A stretch of 48,906 bases of DNA from Chitinophagaceae bacterium (lineage in GTDB: Bacteria > Bacteroidota > Bacteroidia > Chitinophagales > Chitinophagaceae). The position numbers and the translations under genes are program-made. Shown here piece by piece: positions 1 through 9,750 of the stretch. Location of the stretch: the NCBI GenBank assembly GCA_947466405.1, contig CANICR010000004.1, forward strand, positions 1-48,906, in the 5' to 3' direction. Each line of letters starts with the position of its first letter. Positions within the stretch are counted from its first letter, which is position 1. The notes below the pieces were generated by a model, which saw only the letters and a list, made by a program, of their open reading frames with translations, was not told where the DNA came from and ran no database searches.

Positions 1-704
1 AACATTTCAACAGAAAAAGAAAAGGCCATTCCAAAGTATATATAATTTTTAAATTGAAGCGATTCGGCTTTTTCGGCATCCCAGCCTTCCATCACTAAAC
101 TTAGCCCAATCATTACCAAAAATGAAAGCGCCAACATTTTTATTGTTGGGTGATGATGAATAAATTGTGAAATTTTAGGACTAAATAAAAACATAATAAT
201 CATCGCAATAATGACAGCAGCAATCATAATTTCTAAATGTTTGGCTGTGCCACCAGCAGTAATAATACTATCAAATGAAAAAATTGCATCAATAAGCATA
301 ATTTGCCCTATCGCATTTAATAAGGTAAGTTTTGCTTTTTGGTTACTTCCAGCTTTTAAATCTTCTCCCTCAAGTTTAGCATGAATTTCCATTACGGACT
401 TATAAATAAGAAAAACGCCGCCTACTAACATTACAATACTTGCCAAATCGAAGCCTTTGTGAAATATTGAAAGAATTGGTTTGCCCTTTTGCTGAAGTAG
501 CCAGCTTAAACCAAATAACAATAAACTTCTGGAAATCATACCCGTAATCATCCAAGTTCTTCTTGCGATAATTTCTTCACTTTCTTTCTTTAAACGATTC
601 ATGATAATACTAACAAAAATCACATTGTCAATACCCAGTACAATTTCTAAAATTACTAGAATGAAAAAACTGAGGAGACTTTCAGAGGTGAATAGATAAC
701 TCAT
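1..704 (-). CDS. TerC family integral membrane protein (partial, C-terminus outside window)
   Basis: The ORF track omits this gene because it runs off the left edge. Translating the minus strand from the ATG at 704 gives an open frame of 234 codons. It is strongly hydrophobic, with several membrane segments and the two acidic membrane motifs typical of TerC proteins: EIVLGIDNVIF in the first helix and IDAIFSFDSI near residue 145. TerC proteins are inner-membrane proteins linked to metal export (for example Mn2+ loading of exported proteins) and tellurite resistance; the substrate here is unknown. A His-rich loop (FIHHHP) follows. The gene is divergent from the TonB receptor, with a TAGATTTG box 32 nt upstream of the start. 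The 3' end is not visible. Confidence 0.88.
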   Translation of the reverse strand, partial: MSYLFTSESLLSFFILVILEIVLGIDNVIFVSIIMNRLKKESEEIIARRTWMITGMISRSLLLFGLSWLLQQKGKPILSIFHKGFDLASIVMLVGGVFLIYKSVMEIHAKLEGEDLKAGSNQKAKLTLLNAIGQIMLIDAIFSFDSIITAGGTAKHLEIMIAAVIIAMIIMFLFSPKISQFIHHHPTIKMLALSFLVMIGLSLVMEGWDAEKAESLQFKNYIYFGMAFSFSVEM

Positions 705-791: not shown

Positions 792-820
792 TTGCAACTA
801 AGGAATAAATTGTATATTTG
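792..820 (+). promoter_or_regulatory. Promoter of the TonB-dependent receptor gene
   Basis: A -33 TTG (792-794) is followed after 18 nt by TATATTTG (813-820), a full match to the Bacteroidota -7 box. The predicted transcription start falls near 826. This lies downstream of the ORF track's TTG start at 771, so the real start codon should be the ATG at 843. Confidence 0.65.
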
Positions 821-835
821 CAACATTGTTACAAA
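817..835 (+). promoter_or_regulatory. 19-bp palindromic operator overlapping the transcription start
   Basis: TTTGCAACATTGTTACAAA is an inverted repeat with 9-nt arms and one mismatched pair around a single central T. It overlaps the end of the -7 box and the predicted start site, the usual position for a repressor. Fur-family metalloregulators (Fur, Zur) bind palindromes of about this size. Assigning Zur or Fur here is inference from the receptor it controls. Confidence 0.55.
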
Positions 836-9018: not shown

Positions 9019-9750
9019 TTATTCAATAATAAAGGAAAATGAAATCGTTCTTGATTTTATTTGATCAATCACGTTTGAATATTTTAAATTCTCATCTCTG
9101 CTATGAACATTATTTAATCCCCAGCCAACTTTCAATTCAGGTGATAGTACAAACATGGGGAAATAGAAATGAAATCCTATACCTGCCTCAATACCATAAT
9201 CAAGTTTTTTTAATTTAATTTGCCTTTCTGCATTCTTATCTCCTGCATTACCTGCAAAGTCATATTCGAGTTTTCCCCCGGCTAGCATGTATACTTTTAG
9301 GTTATTTATACGATCACTGTTGAATTTGATTTGTACAGGAAGCGCAAGTGTAATTCCCTGTACTTTTTTGATGGTAATACTATCTTCTTCATAATATTTT
9401 TCAGGGACTCTTAATCGATATTCAAAGGCTTTTTCAGTAAAAATTAAATCAAGCGGATAGGTGCGAAGATTAAAATGTTCATTCAGATTCATATCTACAA
9501 GCCATGCTAAGCTGACTCCAGAACTTTGAAGACTTTCTATCCCTAAAACACTATCTCTCGAAGTAAAATAGGGGTTATTGTTAAAATGATAAAATGACCT
9601 ATTTGATCCTAAACTGATTCCAAAGTGAAATAATTTATCATCATGATTTGGTAAATTATATTCTGGTTCAAATTGAGCAAAAGAAATTGATTTGACAGAA
9701 TTCAATAAAATAATGAGTAAGACTACTTTGTTCCGCAATATATACTGCAT
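9019..9750 (-). CDS. porT: PorT-like outer-membrane protein of the type IX secretion system
   Basis: 243 aa with an N-terminal signal (VVLLIILLNSVKSISFAQ) and an 8-strand-type outer-membrane beta-barrel. PorT is a component of T9SS needed for secretion of CTD-bearing cargo and for gliding in related bacteria. Support comes from the pattern after the signal (NHDDKLFHFGISLGSNRSFYHF) and from position: directly downstream of ubiE, an order often seen in Bacteroidota. The start at 9750 overlaps the end of ubiE by 28 nt, so the two are translationally coupled or at least co-transcribed. Two predicted T9SS cargos are encoded in the same window (11290-12867 and 31870-34059). The generic alternative is a porin-family outer-membrane protein. 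Confidence 0.75.
   Translation of the reverse strand: MQYILRNKVVLLIILLNSVKSISFAQFEPEYNLPNHDDKLFHFGISLGSNRSFYHFNNNPYFTSRDSVLGIESLQSSGVSLAWLVDMNLNEHFNLRTYPLDLIFTEKAFEYRLRVPEKYYEEDSITIKKVQGITLALPVQIKFNSDRINNLKVYMLAGGKLEYDFAGNAGDKNAERQIKLKKLDYGIEAGIGFHFYFPMFVLSPELKVGWGLNNVHSRDENLKYSNVIDQIKSRTISFSFIIE

Follow-up and report, generated by a model that had tools for sequence, protein, structure and literature searches.

Control of zinc uptake by the repressor Zur is well described. Zinc-bound Zur represses by blocking RNA polymerase, and its boxes are palindromes that often lie over core promoter elements, sometimes as two boxes over the -35 and -10 elements; known Zur regulons include TonB receptors and COG0523 chaperones, and in some species Zur regulates its own synthesis (PMC6103462). 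A COG0523 gene lying behind a Zur site is a recognised sign of a zinc regulon (PMC2770081), and cysteines of the sensory site are essential in the Zur proteins of E. coli and S. coelicolor (PMC6103462). The closest described receptor is the TonB-dependent ZnuD of N. meningitidis, which in Neisseria is under Zur control. ZnuD was originally annotated as a heme receptor, and its high-affinity zinc ligands are Asp99, His100, Glu340 and His499 (PMC4557270). For the Bacteroidota, neither a Zur box nor any described use of the motif reported here was found in the openly accessible papers searched; the letters of the motif turned up there only in work on insects, vertebrates and plants that has no bearing on it. 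The switch is of a well-known type, and its version in the Chitinophagaceae appears to be undescribed.

Here we analyse the start region of a ZnuD-like receptor gene in a 48,906-nt stretch of DNA from a Chitinophagaceae bacterium (GCA_947466405.1, contig CANICR010000004.1; hereafter the window). The palindrome at this promoter is very probably the operator of a Zur-type repressor, which in its zinc-bound form would block the receptor promoter and would also control its own merC / sco1-zur divergon. The analysis supplies a defined operator sequence and a target list for zinc control in this family; hereby a regulator is named and an orphan receptor is putatively tied to zinc.

A palindrome merged with the receptor promoter

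The palindrome TTTGCAACATTGTTACAAA is built of 9-nt arms, complementary at eight of nine positions, around one central base. It is present as a single exact copy in the window and likewise in the whole 2.08-Mb genome. An earlier note on this DNA had described a near-perfect palindrome over the predicted start site of a promoter with a TTG element and an 18-nt spacer, and the palindrome, the promoter and their overlap were all recovered (Table 1). In Flavobacterium psychrophilum the TAnnTTTG box sits at -12 to -5 (PMC9723704); applying this position to the -7 box of the receptor gene yields the predicted +1, from which a leader of 18 nt would extend to the receptor ATG. The position of the operator relative to this start fits simple steric repression.

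Table 1. Features around the receptor start and two further genes of the window.
Feature	Position in window	Strand	Remarks
-33 element TTG	792-794	+	18-nt spacer to -7 box; starts a degenerate second half-operator
Half-operator remnant TTGCAAC	792-798		left half only; 26-nt register to the operator
-7 box TATATTTG	813-820	+	TAnnTTTG in the Bacteroidota consensus; the operator begins on the left with its TTTG
Putative Zur-type operator TTTGCAACATTGTTACAAA	817-835	+	from about -8 to +11; kept upstream of receptor orthologs
Predicted +1	825	+	inside the operator
ZnuD-like TonB-dependent receptor, 798 aa	843-3239	+	single-gene unit; next gene downstream on opposite strand
TerC-family membrane protein	3-704	-	divergent from the receptor
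PorT/SprT type IX secretion/gliding protein	9019-9750	-	exceeds curated cut-off

Symmetry alone was rejected as evidence, since 9-1-9 palindromes of like quality are common in the window (18 observed against 15.3 ± 3.6 in shuffled sequences); the evidence is the conservation of the site in relatives. For footprinting, the 800 bases upstream of receptor orthologs, brought to one orientation, were searched for the relaxed consensus TTGCAACANTGTTGCAA with at most two mismatches, using as controls palindromes made of the same half-site letters in permuted order. The site was found at 13 of 29 receptor orthologs from the family (permuted palindromes average 0.01) and at 33 of 80 orthologs of a named, mostly Chitinophagaceae set (average 0.02), some genomes being common to both sets. 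In many relatives the operator is merged with TAnnTTTG exactly as at 813-835. Two tandem operators, with the -7 box at the downstream copy, are present in relatives L016, L024, L026, L029 and L036. In relatives such as L016 the full second operator overlaps the -33 TTG, and the half-operator remnant of the window keeps the register seen in L016. In some relatives the operator precedes a small gene ahead of the receptor, and for some close orthologs (L180, L182, L188) no clear operator was found in the upstream DNA examined. Across the phylum the exact motif occurs in 3 of 297 genomes, so that in its strict form it is mostly confined to the family.

These data also bear on the notion that the promoter consensus TAnnTTTGCAA gave rise to the palindrome by chance, without any regulator. 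The abundance of similar symmetry in the window would agree with this, as would the frequency of TANNTTTGCAA, which is about equal to chance. However, the right arm is as conserved as the left, which also holds for sites standing apart from a -7 box and for the fur operon promoter described below, and the permuted-palindrome controls contradict such an origin, which we regard as barely credible.

Two kinds of neighbouring genes were noted along the way. Small His/Cys proteins (about 90-130 aa) with a terminal LRGPP or LRAPP are encoded just before the receptor at 13 of 30 loci (L012-L015, L018, L022, L023, L028, L030-L032, L035, L037), and none was seen beside the receptor in the window; small proteins related to them and encoded behind the operator (L040, L063, L086, L092) matched no Pfam or NCBIfam model. 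The TerC-family gene divergent from the receptor belongs to a family whose member in Riemerella has been named a manganese efflux protein (PMC11960050).

The Fur-family gene and its own putative operator

One Fur-family gene is detectable in the genome, in a sco1-fur operon that diverges from merC. It was read across two contig ends (end of C71 and start of C88; L039, L038) with an identical overlap of about 127 bases within the gene, which is an assembly break and not two genes. The merC / sco1-fur intergenic region holds TTGCAATACCGTTGCAA, also fused to TATATTTG, as the sole other intergenic site found in the genome within three mismatches of the relaxed consensus; the remaining sites examined within this limit lie inside or at the extreme ends of open reading frames. 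Starting from the Fur orthologs, 22 of 29 keep the site at this place within two mismatches (permuted mean 0.014). This link between operator and fur was found independently, by starting from the protein, and is the strongest reason for naming the Fur-family protein as the probable binder. The earlier note had proposed to search the genome for the palindrome itself with up to three mismatches and to look for hits in front of zinc or iron genes, fur/zur among them. A site does precede the operon of the sole Fur-family gene detected, but the proposed search misses it because it differs from the palindrome at four positions, and the other matches of that search lie mostly inside genes.

The regulator carries the FUR domain (PF01475; 41.9 bits, cut-off 23.1). 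Across 30 sequences Cys79 and Cys83 are invariant, a His cluster lies at positions 87-89, and the structural Cys4 site is represented by the invariant pairs C97xxC100 and C133xxC136. The sensory-site cysteine is present as well, Cys79 aligning with a cysteine of M. tuberculosis Zur, a position at which the match 5nbc (C. jejuni Fur) has Asn. On the Zur equivalog model NF008646, which is one equivalog model and not the whole Zur subfamily, the protein scores 29.3 bits against a cut-off of 167, hardly above its scores on PerR or Fur models. Hence we call it Zur-type and do not claim membership of that equivalog.

The cysteines of the regulator, a ZigA-like COG0523 target and the lack of a recurrent iron class among the family targets (see below) together make zinc the likely effector. 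Under zinc sufficiency, 817-835 would be occupied by dimers of Zn-loaded Zur, which would lie over the -7 box together with the start site and keep RNA polymerase away. Zinc starvation would release Zur, the ZnuD-like outer-membrane receptor would be made and zinc would be brought in. Zur would also repress its own cluster, the merC / sco1-zur divergon, and, since the same repressor would control both the receptor and this cluster, they would form a minimal two-promoter regulon in the genome. In line with known Zur systems, the proposed operator lies over core promoter elements and is linked to a TonB receptor, a COG0523 chaperone and the regulator gene itself. It differs from known Zur boxes in its consensus TTGCAACNNNGTTGCAA, which was not found in the literature searched, and in its fusion to the Bacteroidota -7 box, and from known Zur regulons in that the main conserved target is the merC / sco1-zur divergon, znuABC and ribosomal paralogs not being seen.

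Receptor identity and putative zinc-site residues

The receptor comprises CarbopepD_reg_2, Plug and barrel domains. Its best sequence match in the PDB is N. meningitidis ZnuD (E 4e-23), which bears out the likeness to ZnuD stated in the earlier note as far as the nearest structure is concerned; the protein falls short of the curated ZnuD model NF038289, however, scoring 111 bits where the cut-off is 950. Apart from this distance to the ZnuD family, it differs from ZnuD in its extra CarboxypepD_reg-like N-terminal domain. In the HMMER alignment, Glu195, His196 and His548 of the receptor correspond to Asp99, His100 and His499 of ZnuD, the matching being based on a chain-numbering offset of 14 that is consistent for all three positions; the position of Glu340 falls outside the aligned parts. 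The receptor therefore has two histidines, one of the plug and one of a loop, and one acidic residue (Glu in place of Asp99) at ZnuD zinc-site positions. The motifs that hold them, WGDEH (E195/H196; once WGEEH) and NGxH (NGAH in the receptor, H548), are kept in 30 of 30 receptor orthologs.

Heme receptors share two distal histidines (PMC4557270), and on the heme-receptor model TIGR01785 the receptor reaches 147 bits, below the cut-off of 317. Since both the ZnuD and the heme model miss their cut-offs, and since ZnuD too was at first taken for a heme receptor, the substrate is not decided by sequence alone; zinc is the candidate we favour. One alternative sees in the Fur-family protein an iron-responsive Fur, or a PerR-like sensor, and in the receptor an importer of heme or a ferric siderophore. 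This would accord with the higher score on the heme/hemoglobin model than on the ZnuD model and with no second Fur-family gene having been found in the genome. We nevertheless consider it improbable: no iron gene recurs among the one-mismatch targets found in the family, where a ZigA-like zinc chaperone does, and the regulator has invariant Cys79/Cys83, with the Zur-aligned cysteine in place of the Asn of the 5nbc protein.

Recurrent targets in the family and a candidate uptake route

The 120 family genomes contain 71 one-mismatch sites, 55 of which precede recurrent gene classes: MerC/SCO1 (26, one jointly with an ABC gene), the receptor or its small partner gene (14), a TrxB-like flavoprotein (6), COG0523 (4), a second Fur-family gene (2), an M57 peptidase (2) and a DUF3526 ABC permease (1). 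As the classes were built from the same loci, the evidence lies in their recurrence across genomes and not in the total. The COG0523 protein behind the operator scores 558 bits on the ZigA model, just under its cut-off of 600, and resembles this zinc metallochaperone; in the source genome no clear copy was found, a cobW search giving weak matches only. No iron gene class is recurrent among the one-mismatch targets of the 120 family genomes, and neither a znuABC nor a zinc-free ribosomal protein target was seen behind the operator.

A palindrome that overlaps a putative zinc-uptake promoter and is common to other putative zinc genes is thus found by comparison across the family, and at two promoters in the source genome. 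The earlier interpretation as a metal-repressed uptake system, with zinc as the probable metal and repression as the presumed mode of control, gains support from an operator shared with the fur operon and with the ZigA-like chaperone. Its suggestion that the motif might define a regulon agrees with the two promoters and with the recurrent family targets; of the zinc genes it had named as informative, znuABC and zinc-free ribosomal protein paralogs were not seen among the targets.

The identity of the most conserved targets leaves room for yet another view, in which the operator does belong to the Fur-family protein, with copper, cobalt or some other thiophilic metal being sensed or transported; MerC represents a mercury transporter family and SCO1 a copper chaperone family. 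Against this, the ZigA-like COG0523 target and the ZnuD-like site residues favour zinc, and we hold a different metal to be quite unlikely.

Within the zinc reading, searches of the 96%-complete source genome for ZnuA and ZIP gave no match, which makes MerC a candidate inner-membrane zinc importer. Speculatively, the MerC encoded beside the zur operon could import zinc across the inner membrane, and receptor, MerC and SCO-like protein could form a ZnuABC-free, Zur-regulated zinc uptake route; we put this forward as a tentative and rather doubtful proposal. More generally, the target list offers uncharacterised likely partners in zinc starvation, namely the MerC-family protein, the SCO-like protein, the LRGPP small His/Cys proteins, the TrxB-like flavoprotein and the DUF3526 ABC permease.

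Further genes accompany the operator in individual genomes. At L092, L099 and L047 it stands in front of genes for a small HHH protein and, next in order, a NosF-like ABC ATPase, or of a gene for a DUF3526 ABC-2 permease; these may constitute an uncharacterised metal transport system. The TrxB-like NAD(P)/FAD oxidoreductase (GGSYAGLSAAMALGRS) lies near or behind the operator at L084, L089, L093, L098, L132, L136 and L141, and the M57 (HEIGH-type) metallopeptidases found behind it in two genomes (L100, L128) are lipoprotein-like.
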